From the NCBI GenBank assembly GCA_030603495.1, contig JAUVXR010000013.1, forward strand, positions 7,835 through 71,834: 64,000 bases of DNA, in the 5' to 3' direction. Position 1 is the first letter of the stretch. Each line of letters starts with the position of its first letter. Source of the stretch: a bacterium (lineage in GTDB: Bacteria; Armatimonadota; Zipacnadia; Zipacnadales; Zipacnadaceae). The notes under the pieces were generated by a model that worked only from the letters and a program-made list of their open reading frames with translations, was not told the origin of the DNA and made no database searches. This document shows, one piece after another, positions 18,031 to 41,095 of the stretch. A program made the position numbers and the translations under genes.

Positions 18031-18059
18031 GGTAGGACAGGCGTCTCGCCTGTCCTACC
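18031..18059. repeat. perfect 13-bp inverted repeat with 3-nt loop
   Basis: GGTAGGACAGGCG (18031-18043), TCT, CGCCTGTCCTACC (18047-18059). It lies 41 bp behind the uppP stop. No T-run follows, so it is not a standard terminator; its form resembles dispersed palindromic (REP-like) elements. No second copy was noticed in the window. Confidence 0.8.
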
Positions 18060-18163
18060 GGAACGGGAGATTTCTTGAACACAACCCCTGGCTCTGCCCC
18101 GGGTTATGTGCTGTGTGGCTTGTTGCACCGTGCGCCGTCTGTCTATCGAAGGAGGCAGGAAAG

Positions 18164-33788: not shown

Positions 33789-33985
33789 ACACACTTGCTC
33801 TATTGTCGGCTCATTGGCTTTACCCCCTATGCAGTTGTCAGGGTGCGTGCCGCGGCCCGTATGGCCGCGCGCCCCTGATCTTATGTGGCCGGGCATTAAT
33901 CGCACCGGGCTATGCAGTTTGGTACCAAGCCCGTGTCTTGCACCAGCCACGCCAGCTTTTTACAACTGAATACGTTCAGTTTTTT

Positions 33986-34101
33986 CCCGGTGACTATAGC
34001 GGAGGGGCCACACCCGTTCCCATTCCGAACACGGCAGTTAAGCCCTCCTGCGCCGATGGTACTGCACGGGCGACTGTGTGGGAGAGTAGGCCGTCGCCGG
34101 G
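33986..34101 (+). rRNA. rrf: 5S ribosomal RNA
   Basis: Complete 5S rRNA: helix I is formed by CCCGGTGAC (33986-33994) and GTCGCCGGG (34093-34101), nine pairs with one U-G; the loop-A-to-C region CCCATTCCGAACACGG is standard; helix IV (TGCAC / GTGTG) is intact. TTTTTT follows immediately. Last gene of the rRNA operon. Its 3' 73 bp, including the T-run, is repeated at 37064-37136. Confidence 0.97.
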
Positions 34102-34106
34102 TTTTT
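34034..34106 (+). repeat. direct repeat, proximal copy (3' part of 5S rRNA; attL-like)
   Basis: 73 bp from GCAGTTAAGCC to the T-run, matching 37064-37136 at 69 of 73 positions without gaps. Differences are at 34060, 34077, 34079 and 34091. Confidence 0.95.
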
Positions 34107-34115
34107 TGCTTTTAT

Positions 34116-34148
34116 AGGGGCCGAATGGTATAATGCCATTTGGCCCCT
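34116..34148 (+). promoter_or_regulatory. hairpin carrying a -10 box in its loop
   Basis: 34116-34128 pairs with 34136-34148 over 13 bp (one G-U); the loop is TATAATG, containing a perfect -10 (TATAAT, 34129-34134). TTGCTT lies 17 bp upstream as a weak -35. It may be the island promoter, an rRNA operon terminator, or both; transcription could start about 75 nt before the first island gene. Confidence 0.55.
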
Positions 34149-34210
34149 ACTTTCTCCGAACCCGCGACCCACATAAACACGAGCATTAGGCGTCCCCGAG
34201 GTGAACACAC

Positions 34211-34804
34211 ATGGCAGTGGACAATTACCATGACGAAGCCGAGCAAAGGACAAAGATAGGATTCCTGACCGTGCGACACCTGGAGGATGGAAGCTACCGT
34301 GCTGGCCTGCTTGTTACGGATGAGAGGGGTAGGCCGCTGGAACTTCGTGCCAGCGACGCTTTACGACCTGACCGAATTCAGCAACTGCTGTACGGGGACA
34401 CGCTGATCCCTACTATCGCTCAAGTGCTATGCGGTCAACCTTTGATAGACAGCTTGCGCGAGAAACCAGACGTTATCGCGGCGGACAACCAAGCGTTTCT
34501 TCCTCTACATAAGGATGACTGTCCCGTGGTCTACATTCGCCGAACGGGCCAAGAGCTGGAGGTTGACGTGGACGGCGATGTAGACCCCCAGGAAGACCCT
34601 CCCGAGGAGGTCTTACGACCAGTTGGAGCCAGATTCGATCCTGTTGTCCTAGAGTTCGCTCGCAGAATTGAGGGAGAGGACAGACAGTTGTTGCGTGACA
34701 AACTTGCCCGCCTGCTTGAAGCATTTGACCTTGTGGAGCCCTTTGAGCGTCTTGCCAAAGCCCTCGATATGCTCCACGAGCAGCAATCTAACAAGGGAGC
34801 ATAG
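34211..34804 (+). CDS. uncharacterised 197-aa island protein
   Basis: A soluble protein with two parts. Residues 10-100 (KIGFLTVRHLEDGSYRAG, LLVTDERGRPLELR, IQQLLYGDTLIPTIAQVL) look like a compact alpha/beta domain. From memory the pattern GLLVTD..GRPLE followed by a QxxLYGxTL segment recurs in uncharacterised proteins of Planctomycetes and relatives, which I cannot verify here. Residues 110-145 are very acidic (DVDGDVDPQEDPPEE), and the C-terminus is helical. No catalytic motif is visible. The ATG follows GAGGTG at a 7-nt spacing. It ends 5 bp before the SNF2-Mrr gene, so the two are a translation unit and probably work together, perhaps as specificity or adaptor subunit and motor-nuclease. 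Confidence 0.8.
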   Translation: MAVDNYHDEAEQRTKIGFLTVRHLEDGSYRAGLLVTDERGRPLELRASDALRPDRIQQLLYGDTLIPTIAQVLCGQPLIDSLREKPDVIAADNQAFLPLHKDDCPVVYIRRTGQELEVDVDGDVDPQEDPPEEVLRPVGARFDPVVLEFARRIEGEDRQLLRDKLARLLEAFDLVEPFERLAKALDMLHEQQSNKGA

Positions 34805-34809
34805 GCAAT

Positions 34810-37071
34810 ATGCTGCACGTGAGAGATACAGCCCTCCGATTTTGGAGCAGTTTGCCGTATGTACGCCCCTTAGGCTCCTGCGTGATAACAGAGGATCTCT
34901 TACTCGTATGGCACACTAAGTTAGCTGCCCCTCTCTCTACAAGGCAGTACAAAATCCGAACTCTCGGAGCGCCAGCTTTGACGGACGACCTTGCTGCATT
35001 TCCGCCCCCCCACATCGCAGAATGGCGACTCCTTCAAGGGCCTCTTTTGGCCAACGTTAATTTTGATGCTTTCTGTCCCTCCTGCAATATTGTAGGCAAG
35101 CACTTTCTCGTGCGTGTGACTGCGCAGTCCGAATTGCCGCGCATCACCAGGGAAGGACCGACTAGATATGAGCCGAAAAGAACCGGGGAAAGGTTGCCAG
35201 TACCTGCCGCGGAGTTCCTGTGGGATGCCATCCTTGTAGTTCTCCAGCCGCCACTTGACCTCAGTCTATCGAGAATCGTTGATCTGCCACACGATCTATA
35301 TGAGTTCCAAGTACCAGGCATAGAGTTCCTCGCAAAGACGCAGCCCGGCGCTCTTCTAGGTGATGATATGGGCTTGGGTAAAACCGTTCAGGCCATCGTA
35401 GCGCTGCGGGTCCTGTTTCAAGCCGGGAGGATAAGGCACGCCCTGGTAGTTTGCCCACGAAGCGTTCTGCGACAATGGGAGAGGCACTTCGAGGAATGGG
35501 CACCTTTGCTCGTAGTTACCACTGTGGACGGTGACCGGTACGTGCGTCAAGGGTGCTGGATAGGTTATGCCAAGGCCCATGTATATTTGATGACCTACGG
35601 AATTATGCGCCAAGACATCCAGTTGATCACAAGACGCGCTGAGAACAACCCTCGCCTTCGTTTCGACGTCGTAGTTCTCGACGAAATCTCGAATATTAAG
35701 AATCCTGGCACTAGACAATCGCAAGCCGCGAAGGCTCTGCCCAAGCGGGTGGGATGGGGACTTTCGGGAACCCCATTAGAAAACCGCCCCGGTGACGTCG
35801 TAGCAGAATTCGATTTCCTGCATCCAGAATTGTTTGCGGGCCGGACGGATTTATCCAATAGCCAAGTAAGAGATAGAATTGCCCCTTATTTTATGCGGCG
35901 ACGCAAGAGCGAGGTGCTAAAGGACCTCCCTGCTCTGACGCATACCGAACACTGGCTTGAACTTACATCTCAGCAACAAGACTCCTATGAGAAGGCTTAT
36001 GAAACCGGCGTAGTGGAGCTGAGAGAAAAGGGGGAACAAGTCACTGTTACTCATATCTTTGCACTCTTGACGAAATTAAAGCAAATCTGCAACGTAGACC
36101 CGCGCACGCGCAAGAGTGGCAAACTGAAATGGCTACAGGAAAACTTAGAGCAGATGGCCAGCGATAATGACAAAGTGCTAATCTTTTCTCAGTGGTTGGA
36201 ATCTGGCGTTGACGAGATATACCAGCATTTGCCCGAGGAGAGGACACTGAGGTACGTCGGTGAGATGAGTTCGGCGAAACGTGAGGCGGTAGTGGAACGG
36301 TTCCGGAGTGACCCAGATAAGAACGTTCTTCTCCTAACCTACGGAAGCGGGGGGCACGGCCTGAATCTACAGGCAGCAAATTATGTGATATTGTTTGACC
36401 ATTGGTGGAATCCGGCGACTGAAAAGCAGGCTGTGGACAGAACTCATCGCATAGGACAGACGAAACCGGTATTTGTATATGACCTATGGATAAAGAATAC
36501 AGTTGAGGAGAAAATATACCAGATTCTGGAGGATAAGCAGCAGCTTTTTGCTGAAGTAATAGACTCGCTTGCTGTTGGTGGGGCCGAACGTACCGGGCTC
36601 AGCGAGGAGGACTTGTTTGGACTATTCGATCTTACACCTCCTCGGAGCGAAAGAGAGAAGAAGAAGCCCACAGTTCAGTATCTACTTGCCCTTACTCCCG
36701 ATCAATTTGAAGAGTTGCTTGCTCGTATTTACAGACAAACTGGATATGATGTCAGAGTCACTCCTGCCACGAGAGACCAAGGCATAGACGTGATTGCTCA
36801 CAAACAGGACGCCCTAAACCCAGAGTGCATCGCCATTCAGTGCAAGAACCATAGAGCACCTATCGGTCGCCCAGACGCACAACGCTTTCTTGGTGCAGTG
36901 ACGGACCCGAAGTATTCGCAAGCTATTCTCGTTGCTACGGCCGGCTTCACGCATGATTGCGAGGAGTTTGCCCGGAAACAAGGGCGTCTCAAGCTGGTAG
37001 ACGGCCAGCATCTCTGTGACCTCATGCAGGACCTGGAAATCTCGCTTCGTACGGAAGAGTTGAGCAGTTAA
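34810..37071 (+). CDS. SNF2-family helicase fused to Mrr-type restriction endonuclease domain
   Basis: A 753-aa protein. The N-terminal 150 residues include a CPSC pair (89-92). The SNF2 motor follows: Walker A GDDMGLGKT (184-192), motif II DEIS (291-294, an unusual variant of DEAH), SGTPLEN (319-325), and in the second lobe YGSGGHGLNLQ and DRTHRIGQ (543-550). Residues 625-740 form an Mrr_cat nuclease: FEELLARIY helix, DQGIDV with Asp660 and IQCKN with Gln677/Lys679, i.e. a complete PD-(D/E)xK site. Such motor-nuclease fusions occur in anti-phage systems (for example ZorD-like and DISARM SNF2 proteins). GGGAG precedes the ATG by ten bases. The stop codon lies inside the 5S-derived repeat. Confidence 0.9.
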   Translation: MLHVRDTALRFWSSLPYVRPLGSCVITEDLLLVWHTKLAAPLSTRQYKIRTLGAPALTDDLAAFPPPHIAEWRLLQGPLLANVNFDAFCPSCNIVGKHFLVRVTAQSELPRITREGPTRYEPKRTGERLPVPAAEFLWDAILVVLQPPLDLSLSRIVDLPHDLYEFQVPGIEFLAKTQPGALLGDDMGLGKTVQAIVALRVLFQAGRIRHALVVCPRSVLRQWERHFEEWAPLLVVTTVDGDRYVRQGCWIGYAKAHVYLMTYGIMRQDIQLITRRAENNPRLRFDVVVLDEISNIKNPGTRQSQAAKALPKRVGWGLSGTPLENRPGDVVAEFDFLHPELFAGRTDLSNSQVRDRIAPYFMRRRKSEVLKDLPALTHTEHWLELTSQQQDSYEKAYETGVVELREKGEQVTVTHIFALLTKLKQICNVDPRTRKSGKLKWLQENLEQMASDNDKVLIFSQWLESGVDEIYQHLPEERTLRYVGEMSSAKREAVVERFRSDPDKNVLLLTYGSGGHGLNLQAANYVILFDHWWNPATEKQAVDRTHRIGQTKPVFVYDLWIKNTVEEKIYQILEDKQQLFAEVIDSLAVGGAERTGLSEEDLFGLFDLTPPRSEREKKKPTVQYLLALTPDQFEELLARIYRQTGYDVRVTPATRDQGIDVIAHKQDALNPECIAIQCKNHRAPIGRPDAQRFLGAVTDPKYSQAILVATAGFTHDCEEFARKQGRLKLVDGQHLCDLMQDLEISLRTEELSS

Positions 37072-37136
37072 GCCCTCCTGCGCCGATGGCACTGCACGGG
37101 CGACTGCGGGGGAGAGTAGGTCGTCGCCGGGTTTTT
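37064..37136 (+). pseudogene. 5S rRNA 3' fragment (direct repeat, distal copy; attR-like)
   Basis: Second copy of the 3' 73 bp of 5S rRNA. Two of its four differences (C at 37107, G at 37109) break helix IV, which is paired in the proximal copy, so this copy is unlikely to be functional. The 5' half of a 5S gene is absent. Confidence 0.9.
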
Positions 37137-37208
37137 CGTTCGTCGGTACGCTCCGTTTTGGCCACTCTACGCACGTGTTTGGGCCCTCTCCGTCGTGACC
37201 CCTTTCAG

Positions 37209-37238
37209 TTGACTTTTGCCCCCTAAATAGAGTATAAT
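37209..37238 (+). promoter_or_regulatory. sigma-70 promoter downstream of the island
   Basis: TTGACT (37209-37214), an 18-nt spacer, TATAAT (37233-37238); transcription would start about 85 nt before the gene at 37329. Confidence 0.8.
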
Positions 37239-37328
37239 TCTGAGGCTCAGACGGTCTATATCTGATAAACTGTCGTCGGACGAGAGGCTCTCATAACGTC
37301 ATGTATCGTCCGAGGAGTTTGAGAATAT

Positions 37329-37673
37329 ATGGAGACTTTGGTCCAGAAGATCCGCGATATCTTCTGGGGCCAGCCCAGCGAAAACGGCAACGGGATGGCT
37401 CCGGCAATGCGGATCACCGTACAATGTGACTGCGGCGAGCAAATCTCAACACGCATCGAAAAAGCATACGAGCTACAAGAGCAATATCTGCAGGCCTCTG
37501 ATAACGACAAAGATAAACCACCAGCCATCGCCGGCTATCTGTTGAGAAAAGAGCTCGTCGGTAACTGCTGCCAGAACCCAGTGCGGGTTATCGTGCATTT
37601 CGACGCCGAAAGGTGTCCGGCTGACCACAGTATCGAGGGCGGCGAGTGGGTCTCGGCCGAAGAATGCCTGTAA
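37329..37673 (+). CDS. small hypothetical protein with CxC and CC motifs
   Basis: A 114-aa cytoplasmic protein. Residues 29-40 read ITVQCDCGEQIS, and a second pair of cysteines (NCCQNPVRV) is near residue 80; together they could bind a metal, and a further Cys lies near 95 and 113. The pattern of two beta-rich blocks, each starting with cysteines, suggests a small zinc-stabilised fold. I do not recognise the family. It has its own promoter at 37209-37238 and is followed after 41 bp by the presenilin-like membrane protein, with which it may be co-transcribed. The ATG at 37329 lacks a strong Shine-Dalgarno. Confidence 0.65.
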   Translation: METLVQKIRDIFWGQPSENGNGMAPAMRITVQCDCGEQISTRIEKAYELQEQYLQASDNDKDKPPAIAGYLLRKELVGNCCQNPVRVIVHFDAERCPADHSIEGGEWVSAEECL

Positions 37674-37714
37674 CCTGGGGGAGTGGCTCGAGGCGTCGTG
37701 CGGAGGGATGAGCT

Positions 37715-38614
37715 ATGAGTGGCATCAGCGAAGCAGCCTCCGAGCCGCGCGGTAGCTGGTTGTTGCTAGGATCGCCGGTAGGGAAATTAGTCCTGCTGGC
37801 GATTGGCATCTATGTCGTTCTGGTCAGTACCCCCCTGATTCCCCTTCCCCCCAGCTACGGCCTGTATCTGGTCTTGGCGGGGTCGCTCGTGGCGACGCTC
37901 CTGCTGGCGGCGTTGTCGCTGATGCTGCTGATCAATGGTGCTCGGCTGCATCTATCAGTAGCTCATGAAGTGGGTCTGGTGGCTATCTCAGTGGGCCTGT
38001 GGCTGGGCCTGACCAGGTTAGCCGAACTGACTCACCTGCTCCAGCTACTCATCGCGCCCGTTGCTACCGTAGTCTTCCTGCTGGCGTGCTTATGGCTGGG
38101 GAGAGTGATATCACGCCTGTTCCGGGACCGGAGCATCCTCCTGCCGGTCTGTGGGGCGGCGGCGGTGATGGATATTTTCACGGTCTACGCTGGGCCGACG
38201 GGCATGATGCTGGAGCAGCACCCCGAGTTTGTTAAGAGCCTGTCGGTGGCTATTCCCCAGATCGGTTCAGCCGCGGGCGAAGCGGGCCTGGCGGGGCTCA
38301 GCATCGCCAACTTCATCGGCCTGGGCGATTTCATATTCCTCGCGGCATTTCTGACCGCAGGAGCCAGGTTCGGTTTCAATCTGGCCCGCACGGCGGGGGT
38401 GGTGCTGCTTCTGGTGGCCGCGGGAATGACTGTGCACGTTTTCTCACGTGTTATGATGGGCATGCCGCTGCTCCCGTTCATCGTAGTGGGGTTTGTAGCG
38501 GCAAACTGGCGCGAGTTCCGCTTGAGCGCGGAGGAGAAGAAGGCGGTCGCTGCGGGAGCACTGCTGATCGCTGGGTTGATGCTGATAATGTGGCTGCTGG
38601 TCTGCCGAAGCTGA
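37715..38614 (+). CDS. presenilin/signal-peptide-peptidase-like GxGD intramembrane protease homologue
   Basis: A 299-aa protein with about eight or nine hydrophobic spans. It has all three landmarks of GxGD aspartyl proteases in order: an Asp in a membrane span (VMDIFTVYAG, Asp153), then about 50 residues later GLGDFIF (202-208, Asp205), and in the following part a PLLP sequence (251-254) in the place of the PAL motif. The text around GLGDFIF is strikingly like presenilin. In this family the two aspartates cut transmembrane helices. The YD of presenilin is MD here and PAL is PLL, so activity is not certain. The ATG at 37715 has GGAGGGATG upstream. It converges with folK. Confidence 0.7.
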   Translation: MSGISEAASEPRGSWLLLGSPVGKLVLLAIGIYVVLVSTPLIPLPPSYGLYLVLAGSLVATLLLAALSLMLLINGARLHLSVAHEVGLVAISVGLWLGLTRLAELTHLLQLLIAPVATVVFLLACLWLGRVISRLFRDRSILLPVCGAAAVMDIFTVYAGPTGMMLEQHPEFVKSLSVAIPQIGSAAGEAGLAGLSIANFIGLGDFIFLAAFLTAGARFGFNLARTAGVVLLLVAAGMTVHVFSRVMMGMPLLPFIVVGFVAANWREFRLSAEEKKAVAAGALLIAGLMLIMWLLVCRS

Positions 38615-38628
38615 GGCTGTGCAAGACC

Positions 38629-39126
38629 TCACTCTCCCACGCGCCGCAATGTGGGATCAGCGGGCCGGGCCGCCTCGGCAGCAGTGCGTCCGTCAGGTAG
38701 CACCAAGTCGGGGGCAATCTCCGCGAGCGGCACAAGCACAAACTGGCGGTGGAGAATCTGGGGATGAGGTATCTTCAGGTCGGGCTCGTCTACTGTCTCA
38801 TCGCCATAGAGCAGGATGTCAATATCAATGGACCGCGGGCCCCAGTGCTGAGCGCGCACGCGGCCTATCTCCTTTTCTATCCCCTGGACTATCGATAGCA
38901 ATCGCCGCGCTGAGCAGATCACCTGTACCTCGGCTACCTGATTAAGAAAATCCGATTGGTCCTGGGGACCAACCGGAGCACTCTCGTACACAGACGAAGT
39001 GCTATCAATCTCGATTTCCGGTACTTCCGCCAGCCGCCGGCGCGCGTCTTTGATGTTGCGGGCGCGGTCGCTGAGATTGCTGCCCAGGCTGAGGTAGCAG
39101 GTGACAGGACTGGTCACTGTTTCCAC
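38629..39126 (-). CDS. folK: 6-hydroxymethyl-dihydropterin pyrophosphokinase
   Basis: About 165 residues. FolK transfers pyrophosphate from ATP to 6-hydroxymethyl-7,8-dihydropterin in folate synthesis. Signature segments: YLSLGSNLSDR near the N-terminus, SSVYESAPVGPQDQSDFLNQV, and GPRSIDIDILLYGDE with the metal-binding DxD, followed by IPHPQILHRQFVLVPLAEIAP. The frame is open to 39165, but the GTGs at 39126 and 39117 lie just behind the ftsH stop and give the normal N-terminus; which of the two is used is unclear. It is the last gene of a minus-strand series beginning with hom. Confidence 0.93.
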   Translation of the reverse strand: METVTSPVTCYLSLGSNLSDRARNIKDARRRLAEVPEIEIDSTSSVYESAPVGPQDQSDFLNQVAEVQVICSARRLLSIVQGIEKEIGRVRAQHWGPRSIDIDILLYGDETVDEPDLKIPHPQILHRQFVLVPLAEIAPDLVLPDGRTAAEAARPADPTLRRVGE

Positions 39127-39130
39127 GACC

Positions 39131-41095
39131 TCAAGGCGTCTCGGGCAAGGGGCGCCGCGGCACAACCTCCGGGGCTGGTTGAGGGGCCTCGGGCTGCCGC
39201 TCGGGCTGGGGCTCGCGCTCGCCCACCTCTTCAGCCTTAGGCTCGGCGGCTTCCTGGGGCAGTTCGCCGCGCTCGAGCAGCGCCTCGACCTGTGCCATCG
39301 TCAGCGTCTCGTGCTCGAGGAGGGCCTCGACGAGCAGATCCAGCTTGTCCCGATTTTGGCGGAGGATATCCGTGGCGCGCTGCTGGGCCTCCCCTACCAG
39401 GCGGTGGACCTCCTCGTCAATCTTCTGGGCAGCATCCTCGGAGTAGTTGCGCTCTTCGGTGAACTCCTTGCCCAGGAAGACCGGCCCCGTGTGACGTCCA
39501 TAAGTAATCGGCCCGAGCTCTTCACTCATTCCATATTCAGTGACCATCTGCCGGGCGAGCTTGCTGACCTTCTCCAGATCATTGGCGGCGCCGGTAGTGA
39601 TATCCCCGAATACCAGCTCTTCGGCAGCTCGGCCGCCCAGGGCCTGAGTGATCTGGTCGTGCAATTCCGTGGCAAACATCATATAGCGATCATCTTCGGG
39701 TAGGTTGAGCGTATAGCCGAGGGCCATGCCCCGTGGCAGGATACTGATCTTGTACGTCTTATCGAAGCCGGGCAACATACTGCCAACCAGCGCGTGGCCG
39801 GCTTCGTGGTAGGCCAGGACCCGGCGTTGGTCTTCGCTCATCACGCGACTCTTGCGCTCGGGCCCGGCCAAGATGCGCTCGACTGCCTCGTCGAGTTCAG
39901 GCATATCAATTTGCTTTTTGTGGCGACGGGCGGCGAGCAACGCGGCCTCGTTGACCAGGTTCTCCAGGTCCGCTCCCGAGAAGCCGGGCGTGCGCTTGGC
40001 CAGGACGGCGGGCAAGACTTCCTCTCCCATGGGCTTGTCTTTCATATACAGCTCCAGGATCGCCTGGCGCTCCCTGACATCGGGATTCGGCACAACCACT
40101 TGCCGGTCGAAGCGGCCGGGGCGGAGCAGGGCCGGGTCGAGGATGTCGGGCCGATTGGTCGCGGCCAAAATGATGATATCGGCGTTGGGATCGAAGCCAT
40201 CCATCTCCACCAGCAAGGCGTTGAGCGTCTGCTCCCGCTCGTCGTGGCCGCCGCCCAGTCCTGCGCCGCGCAGGCGGCCGACAGCGTCCAGCTCATCAAT
40301 GAAGATAATGGCGGGCAGGTGCTGCTTGGCTTCCTTGAACAAGTCGCGCACCCGTGATGCGCCTACGCCGACAAACATCTCGACAAAGTCGGAGCCGCTC
40401 ATATAGAAGAAGGAGACGCTCGCTTGCCCGGCGACGGCTCGAGCCAGCAGGGTCTTGCCGCAGCCGGGCGGACCGACCAGCAGGACGCCACGGGGAATCT
40501 TAGCGCCCAGGGCCCGGAAGCGCTCCGGGTCCTTGAGAAACTCCACGACCTCCTGCAGCTCTTCTTTGACCTCCTCCATGCCGGCGACTTCGTCGAAGGT
40601 CACCTGCTTCATAGCCTCGCCTAGGAGCTTGGCCTGGCTGCGGCCGAAGTTAAAGGCCTGGCCGCCTGCACCGCGCATCTGCCGGAGGATGAATATCCAG
40701 AAGACCAGTAGAATTGCTATCGGCACAATGAACGTACCCAACATGCCCAGCAAGTTGTCGGTCCAGGAGCCGGGCACCGGGGCGATCTGGACTTTAGGGT
40801 GCTCGTCTATGAGCTTGGCGATCGTCTGCGCATCCAGTTCGGCCTGCACTTTGTATTCCTCGAAGACTTGCCCGCCAGCGACGAACGCCTCCGCTGTGAA
40901 TTCGCCCTCGACCCGCTTGCCGCCGGTGACGCGCATCGTCGCGATCTTGCCAGCGTCCAAGTCAGCGATGAAGTCGCTGTAGTATTCATACTCCTTAACT
41001 GCTGGAGTCTGCCGCGACAACTTCGGGATCATGAAGAAGGCCGCCACGATCGCAGCGATAACCAGCAAGGTTACAAACGGATTGTGCCTGCTCAT
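39131..41095 (-). CDS. ftsH: ATP-dependent zinc metalloprotease FtsH
   Basis: A 654-aa membrane protease. Two membrane spans (residues 8-24 and 118-138) flank a small periplasmic domain. The AAA module has Walker A GPPGCGKT (208-215), Walker [12 protein letters not shown] (263-273) and the second region of homology [19 protein letters not shown]. The zinc protease motif HEAGH is at 430-434. The C-terminus is proline/glutamate-rich. FtsH degrades misfolded membrane proteins and short-lived regulators. tilS lies directly upstream and folK directly downstream; the tilS-ftsH order is common in bacteria. Confidence 0.97.

Follow-up and report, generated by a model that had tools for sequence, protein, structure and literature searches.

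In a family of "Candidatus Zipacnadia" (Armatimonadota), sediment bacteria, the region that follows the 5S rRNA gene at the rRNA operon end may be a recurrent landing and exchange site for small defense or toxin-antitoxin modules, which would move largely by recombination at rRNA and 5S homology. We give this reading about an even chance of being correct. A cassette that pairs a small gene, geneA, with a SNF2 helicase-Mrr nuclease fusion would be one occupant of the site. It lies in a 64,000-nucleotide stretch of DNA (the window) from a genome labeled G000, which was compared with its relatives in a family sample of 15 genomes, all of them draft assemblies; a clear 5S gene or 5S tail was found in only 8 of the 15. 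The 5S gene is needed by every bacterium and its sequence is strongly conserved, and the ends of rRNA operons are where draft assemblies often break.

A two-gene cassette between an intact 5S rRNA gene and a decayed 5S tail

The intact 5S rRNA gene (33986 to 34102, plus strand; Rfam RF00001, 108.2 bits) is the only full 5S found in G000. Its 3' part, with the adjoining T-run, forms the left copy of a 73-bp direct repeat (34034 to 34106, plus strand); the right copy lies 3,030 bp downstream (37064 to 37136, plus strand). The two are identical at 69 of 73 positions, and the best match among shuffled sequences reached 38 of 73. Recomputation confirmed the repeat and its T-run as they stood in the original prediction, which had put the 5S part at 68 nt; the repeat begins at 5S nt 49 and so comprises the 69 nt at the 3' end of 5S, followed by four T residues. 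The right copy is decayed, scoring just 31.5 bits against the 5S model, and the stop codon of the SNF2 gene (37069 to 37071) falls inside it. A strong hairpin 3' of the intact gene (34115 to 34149, plus strand; fold z = -5.3) is probably the rRNA operon terminator; when the regions downstream of 5S were compared, other families of the order had hairpins at the equivalent position. A TATAAT palindrome behind 5S was considered as a cassette promoter and was dropped because those families have a terminator-type hairpin there.

Only two genes lie between the repeats, geneA (197 aa; 34211 to 34804, plus strand) and the SNF2-Mrr fusion (753 aa; 34810 to 37071, plus strand), and neither is an integrase. 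The GC content of the cassette (34211 to 37063) is 52.3%, versus 61.8 ± 1.7% for segments of equal length from the same 64 kb, rRNA excluded. Gene content, absence of an integrase, and low GC all agree with what had been predicted. The chromosomal right flank (37137 to 41095) holds a 114-aa gene, a gene for a 299-aa membrane protein, folK, and ftsH, with a promoter-like site at 37209 to 37238; it is conserved in the genus, and in G006, G004, and G001 the aligned sequence follows each genome's own 5S gene or tail. The independently assembled G006 has the same order of 5S, geneA, SNF2 gene, and 5S tail at the same site, so the structure in the window is not a misassembly.

The cassette encodes a candidate defense pair

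The 753-aa protein matched the Pfam families SNF2 (PF00176; 1.4e-40), Helicase_C (PF00271; 3.8e-20), and Mrr_cat (PF04471; 1.8e-29), the last with 102.6 bits, above its gathering score of 21. For geneA, no family match was found in Pfam, NCBIfam, or PADLOC. A structure model of geneA (pLDDT 88.8) matched the folds of 2qh9 (Z of 12.4) and Endonuclease V (Z up to 12.1 over 169 residues), which predicts an Endonuclease V-like fold over nearly its whole length (Z of about 11 to 12), of the RNase H type that also includes NurA and PIWI. The predicted fold is common to geneA and these proteins, but the sequence family match is absent in geneA. Residues D37 and E44 are conserved across 32 geneA sequences; since the first core strand (residues 16 to 23) carries no conserved acidic residue, geneA may perhaps not be an active nuclease. 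We regard geneA-SNF2 as a widespread, uncharacterized, and unnamed pair and a candidate defense system. Its products would form a DNA-targeting defense pair, in which an ATP-driven SNF2 motor and an Mrr nuclease are assisted by geneA.

An exchanged tract begins upstream of the 5S gene

Differences between G000 and G006 at third codon positions amount to 0.21 to 0.23 in the cassette, versus 0.44 to 0.54 in five flanking genes. Being about half as diverged as its flanks, the cassette was exchanged after the two species split, in line with the horizontal movement that the original prediction had proposed. The tract of high identity runs from 33881 to about 37043 and has abrupt edges; outside it, identity is 0.69 on the left (68.5% at 33791 to 33880) and 0.66 to 0.71 on the right. 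The shared block thus starts within the 23S-5S spacer, roughly 105 bp before the 5S gene; this spacer segment (33881 to 33985, plus strand) is 98.1% identical to G006 and absent from the latter's sister species, G004.

A transfer that begins upstream of 5S is not explained by an integrase simply inserting the cassette into the gene's 3' end, and the classical insertion with gene restoration that had been proposed is not supported on this point. The tract is also a mosaic: 5S nt 77 to 117 are only 78% identical and two SNF2 stretches 63 to 70%, which calls for more than one event. Judged from these alignments, exchange of a piece of the rRNA operon end would fit better than a crossover inside 5S, a result that concerns the exchange between G000 and G006 and not necessarily the first insertion.

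Cargo turnover at the 5S site and 5S-bordered modules elsewhere

The site behind 5S holds the SNF2 pair in G000 and G006, MNT with a truncated HEPN in G004, and, in G001, the first part of a gene for an N6/N4 DNA methyltransferase, next to a 5S tail. Differently filled sites in relatives had been anticipated, as had the defense-like character of the cargo, which is supported here; the pair is not at this place in all relatives, as simple vertical inheritance would have it. The G001 methyltransferase start, a 71-aa fragment, was identified only through homologues within the phylum; searched alone, it had no match in Pfam or among plasmids. G001 was at one stage taken for an empty site, wrongly, as its 5S lacks nt 1 to 21 and the methyltransferase start lies upstream. 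None of the genomes examined had a clean empty 5S site, G001 and G004 holding other cargo. Between the sister species G004 and G006, 5S is identical and both sides of it differ, while genes flanking another insertion site are 90 to 94% identical; this, too, suits exchange of an operon-end piece better than a crossover within 5S.

Modules bordered by 5S pieces also occur elsewhere in the family. Beside ffh, G006 carries a restriction-modification (R-M) pair, a methylase and a probable nuclease, with 5S nt 105 to 120 on the left and nt 14 to 85 on the right; the same flanks are separated by just 91 bp in G000 and 42 bp in G001. The probable nuclease (233 aa) matched nothing in Pfam or among plasmids. 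G013 has a PLD nuclease and a methylase, bordered on one side by a 5S tail and on the other by a tail of 14 nt, and G011 has MNT-HEPN with 5S tails on both sides, as well as stacked 5S tails. The G013 and G011 modules lie at a LysE site. Across the family, 5S tails start at nt 14, 22, 39, 49, 57, 62, 68, 99, and 105, with no common core.

Two sets of candidates were set aside. The 5S fragments at contig ends in G027, G046, and G060 (loci L059 to L061 and L072) end exactly where the contigs do and are assembly breaks, and those in G009, G010, G012, and G014, from six-frame searches with 5S patterns of three mismatches, were at control level and were disregarded.

Possible routes of movement

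In the reading that we favor, modules would travel on DNA that includes the rRNA operon end and would become established through homologous recombination, one arm being the conserved 23S/5S region and the other the 5S tail; the tail on the right would then be the recipient's own 5S 3' end, displaced. Several points weigh against it. Besides the lack of a clean empty 5S site, the mosaic tract, and the small sample of draft genomes, the right-hand homology is at most 73 bp, short for RecA recombination, and the R-M insert of G006 beside ffh, taken with its empty counterparts, shows a move to a locus where no rRNA operon lies, for which rRNA homology alone is insufficient.

Site-specific integration, by a recombinase since lost or acting in trans that uses the 3' part of 5S for attachment, in the manner of islands that target tRNA genes, is a possibility to be kept in mind, though an unlikely one. 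The inserted element would restore the left 5S, and the right copy would be attR, which suits a direct repeat of the 5S 3' end with the gene intact on the left and decayed on the right, the varying cargo, and the stacked tails of G011, which resemble repeated insertions at one site. Yet the 3-kb cassette has no integrase, the exchanged tract takes in the spacer upstream of 5S, the tails start variously without a shared core, and viral contigs contained no match to an exact 26-nt mid-5S pattern or to the SNF2 protein.

We also consider it unlikely that the modules entered by insertion with long target duplication, a repair-type event needing neither transposase nor integrase. The long direct repeats of variable extent, the missing mobility gene, and a cargo made up mostly of R-M and toxin-antitoxin genes are what it would leave, and the mechanism is reported for R-M genes (PMC3031569, citing Nobusato 2000 and Furuta 2010). 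Against it, the R-M unit beside ffh carries pieces of 5S in place of duplicated sequence from the ffh site, and the reach of the exchanged tract upstream of 5S is again unaccounted for.

More doubtful is an undescribed cassette system in which the 5S 3' end would itself be the recombination site. Modules with 5S-derived ends would be inserted, stacked, and moved by a trans-acting recombinase, so that integron-like arrays would build up behind rRNA operons, with an occasional jump to places such as the ffh site of G006 and the LysE site of G013 and G011.

An old duplication of 5S or of the rRNA operon end, since decayed, between whose copies unrelated genes later fell, is improbable. The G006 copy beside ffh, alignable to the complete 5S model (47.8 bits), does look like a decayed full gene, but the relatives have a single full 5S apiece, and tandem complete 5S genes, which the original prediction had named as evidence for such a history, were seen in none of them across the order. 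In addition, 5S tails repeatedly adjoin defense genes, and cassette and flanks differ twofold in divergence. That the tail was retained as a transcription terminator of the upstream gene, and is no scar of movement, is very improbable: several tails are sense oriented directly after a stop codon (in the window, G011 C92, and G013), but shuffled sequence folds at least as well as the right repeat does (z of +0.63), and tails also lie upstream of modules (at the left edge in G006 and before the PLD gene in G013).

Comparison with known systems

If exchange at the rRNA operon end is real, a 5S site could pass defense modules between species without any integrase; rRNA operon ends would be worth searching for mobile defense genes, which island finders based on tRNA would miss. 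The literature that we searched held no report of 5S as a site of defense genes, an absence that is not proof; orphan or truncated 5S genes have been reported in Francisella and Achromatium.

The SNF2-Mrr protein most resembles ZorD of type I Zorya, its best PADLOC match (3.6e-75), which likewise joins a SNF2 helicase and an Mrr-like nuclease in one chain. It differs in scoring 168.3 bits against a cutoff of 1,500 and in having geneA as its partner; none of ZorA, ZorB, and ZorC was found among its neighbors in the window. It also fell short of the cutoffs for DISARM DrmD (100 versus 950 bits) and DpdE (64.7 versus 500 bits). The geneA-SNF2 pair is offered as a candidate defense system whose fold can be predicted and which lends itself to a simple test.

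Islands in tRNA and tmRNA genes, as found by Islander/TIGER (PMC12424338), likewise show a direct repeat made of an RNA gene's 3' end, an intact gene at one end, and variable cargo, but here the gene is 5S rRNA, the insert has no integrase and is only 3 kb long, and the tract reaches upstream of the gene. The defense hotspots of E. coli (PMC10121019) share with the 5S site a single chromosomal location whose defense cargo is exchanged between close relatives. That study describes 41 hotspots, of which 18 lie in tRNA loci; the cargo there is carried by prophages, satellites, ICEs, or other mobile elements, in contrast to the bare two-gene modules seen here; a search of its text found no mention of rRNA. 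Integron gene cassettes are matched only in layout, as units of gene plus site.

R-M insertions with long target duplication, described by the Kobayashi group (PMC3031569), are likewise small R-M-type modules with variable long direct repeats, no integrase or transposase, and cargo that differs between close relatives. The modules described here differ in that their repeats come time and again from one RNA gene, 5S, in a cargo that includes the SNF2-Mrr pair and MNT-HEPN, and in that no empty 5S target was seen. They provide an explicit test case for how defense modules without an integrase move, a question open since the first reports of R-M genes between long repeats.

Structure of a 5S-flanked two-gene cassette

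The sole full 5S rRNA gene found in the window genome (33986-34102, 108 bits) is followed by geneA (34211-34804, 197 aa) and a SNF2-Mrr gene (34810-37071, 753 aa), the stop codon of which lies inside a downstream 5S-derived repeat. This repeat is a second copy, 3,030 bp downstream, of a 73-bp segment that spans 5S nt 49 to the T-run inclusive. The two copies agree at 69/73 positions without gaps; the best match in a shuffled-sequence control was 38/73, and the right copy scores 31.5 bits versus 108 bits for the left 5S. Cassette GC is 52.3%, compared with 61.8 ± 1.7% in windows of equal length from the 64 kb with rRNA excluded, and third-position GC is 0.53 to 0.57 in the cassette genes versus 0.65 to 0.79 in neighboring genes. 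The cassette, consisting of geneA and SNF2-Mrr, contains no integrase. The original observation of a GC-poor, integrase-free gene pair between 5S-derived repeats was confirmed on each of these points.

Two conserved genes without a Pfam match (37329-38614), encoding a 114-aa protein and a 299-aa membrane protein, lie behind the site in every examined species of the genus. Elsewhere, 18031-18061 holds a palindromic repeat (GACGGGCG...CGCCCGTC type) that resembles REP elements; it is widespread in the family, each genome having tens of copies.

The site holds different cargo in related genomes

The right flank (114-aa gene, 299-aa membrane gene, folK, and ftsH) is common to three relatives, G006, G004, and G001. 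At the G006 site, geneA and SNF2-Mrr lie between 5S and a worn 5S tail (the leftover 3' part of a 5S gene). G004 has 5S, then a nucleotidyltransferase (MNT) gene (PF01909) and an apparent HEPN gene broken off after its start; no 5S tail is left at this site. In G001, at a contig end, 5S lacks nt 1-21, and an opposite-strand gene beside it has a match to N6/N4 DNA methyltransferases in its first 71 aa; two homologues of this start (L172 and L174) match PF01555 at 1e-29 and 7e-28. Within a single genus, the site has thus been filled in no fewer than three ways, and every fill, that of the window genome included, is of defence or toxin-antitoxin type. The differently filled sites that were sought are seen in G004 and G001, and two complete 5S genes in tandem, the mark of a mere 5S duplication, were found in no relative within the order. 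No clean empty 5S site was seen in the relatives examined, which are few and all metagenome-assembled drafts of Candidatus Zipacnadia (Armatimonadota), a class described in PMC10290634.

Proposed exchange of the rRNA-operon end

Third-codon-position differences between the window genome and G006 are 0.21 in geneA and 0.23 in SNF2, compared with 0.44 to 0.54 in five neighboring genes, and the high-identity tract has abrupt edges. Identity in the 23S-5S spacer is 68.5% over 33791-33880 and 98.1% over 33881-33985; within 5S it is 98.7% for nt 1-76 and 78% for nt 77-117; geneA is 85% identical, SNF2 has a stretch at 93%, and the right flank is at 66 to 71%. The lower divergence and abrupt edges indicate that one of the lineages, or both, acquired the cassette after they split; the 98.1% spacer segment implies that DNA upstream of 5S traveled with it, and the mosaic tract that there was more than one event. 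Within the SNF2 gene, 35100-35299 and 35500-35799 are 63 to 70% identical, and 35300-35499 and 35800-37043 exceed 92%, a sequence pattern that suggests recombination or diversification within the protein.

G004 and G006 are close (90 to 94% identical over genes beside ffh) and have identical 5S, yet their sequences differ on either side of it. A single crossover inside an RNA gene is the hallmark of integrase islands. The tract and the G004/G006 contrast argue against such a crossover within 5S, and for exchange of the rRNA-operon end. The original proposal of integration into the 5S 3' end is supported as to horizontal movement of the cassette, but not as to a single crossover in 5S.

The geneA-SNF2 pair

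Of 38 loci drawn from many phyla, 32 have geneA immediately 5' of SNF2, and three of the remaining six start at a contig edge. Phyla are intermixed in the SNF2 tree, with Gammaproteobacteria next to Lentisphaerae, for example, at full support. Neighbors, read by eye, are largely unrelated housekeeping genes, with occasional restriction-modification (R-M)-type genes. Across many phyla (L107-L138), the pair appears as an isolated two-gene unit, with the Mrr domain present or absent. The structure predicted for geneA, with good confidence (pLDDT 88.8), is an Endonuclease V/NurA/PIWI-type RNase H fold. SNF2-Mrr is like ZorD, but scores far under the ZorD cut-off. We regard the pair as an unnamed candidate system and infer a function in defence.

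5S tails elsewhere in the family

An R-M insert on G006 contig C6 (L062:5564-7630) sits between a 368-aa gene and ffh, and comprises the genes for a methylase (PF01555) and for a protein of 233 aa that lacks a Pfam match and is, by position, probably its nuclease. Its left end carries 5S nt 105-120, 16 exact bases directly 3' of the preceding gene; its right end carries 5S nt 14-85 together with what reads by eye as the 3' end of an IS3-type transposase gene. The same flanks enclose a gap of 91 bp in the window genome and 42 bp in G001. The apparent transposase 3' end (L062:7485-7594), which adjoins the 5S piece, is dispersed in the genus (also L104:1400-1620, G006 contig C50).

In G013, a 5S tail (nt 57 on) precedes a phospholipase D-type nuclease and a methylase at a contig end, with a 14-nt 5S-tail match 3' of the methylase. 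On G011 contig C92 (L054:6800-10002), three tails lie between intact 5S and nth: the first, from nt 68, precedes a GH39-like gene; the second, from nt 99, separates this gene from MNT-HEPN; and the third, from nt 39, follows MNT-HEPN. The layout is like stacked cassettes, every one ended by a 5S-derived piece. Another G011 tail adjoins a LysE-type gene, and its site seems to match that of the G013 tail. Outside this family, no 5S tails were found elsewhere in the order except contig-end artefacts, and among the matches listed, the 190 genomes of the phylum with a 5S match had mostly one match or separate full copies. Independent loci are few, about four sites with seven fills.

A proposed mechanism

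Cargo turns over at one site, exchange has been recent, and tails border the modules. The end of an rRNA operon, brought in on DNA from a relative, would recombine via conserved 23S/5S sequence, and the recipient's own 5S 3' end would remain as the right-hand tail. Each module may first have landed by means of a recombinase now absent, or by insertion with long target duplication, which is known for R-M genes (PMC3031569). Derivation of the tails from one fixed crossover core in 5S is at odds with their varied starting positions, from 14 to 105. That the right-hand tail serves as a terminator is not supported, as shuffled versions fold at least as well as the right repeat; the hairpin 3' of intact 5S is strong (z -5.3). 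The 5S exchange site is real and unusual, and is best filed as a novel form of the known integrase-less mobility of defence genes.
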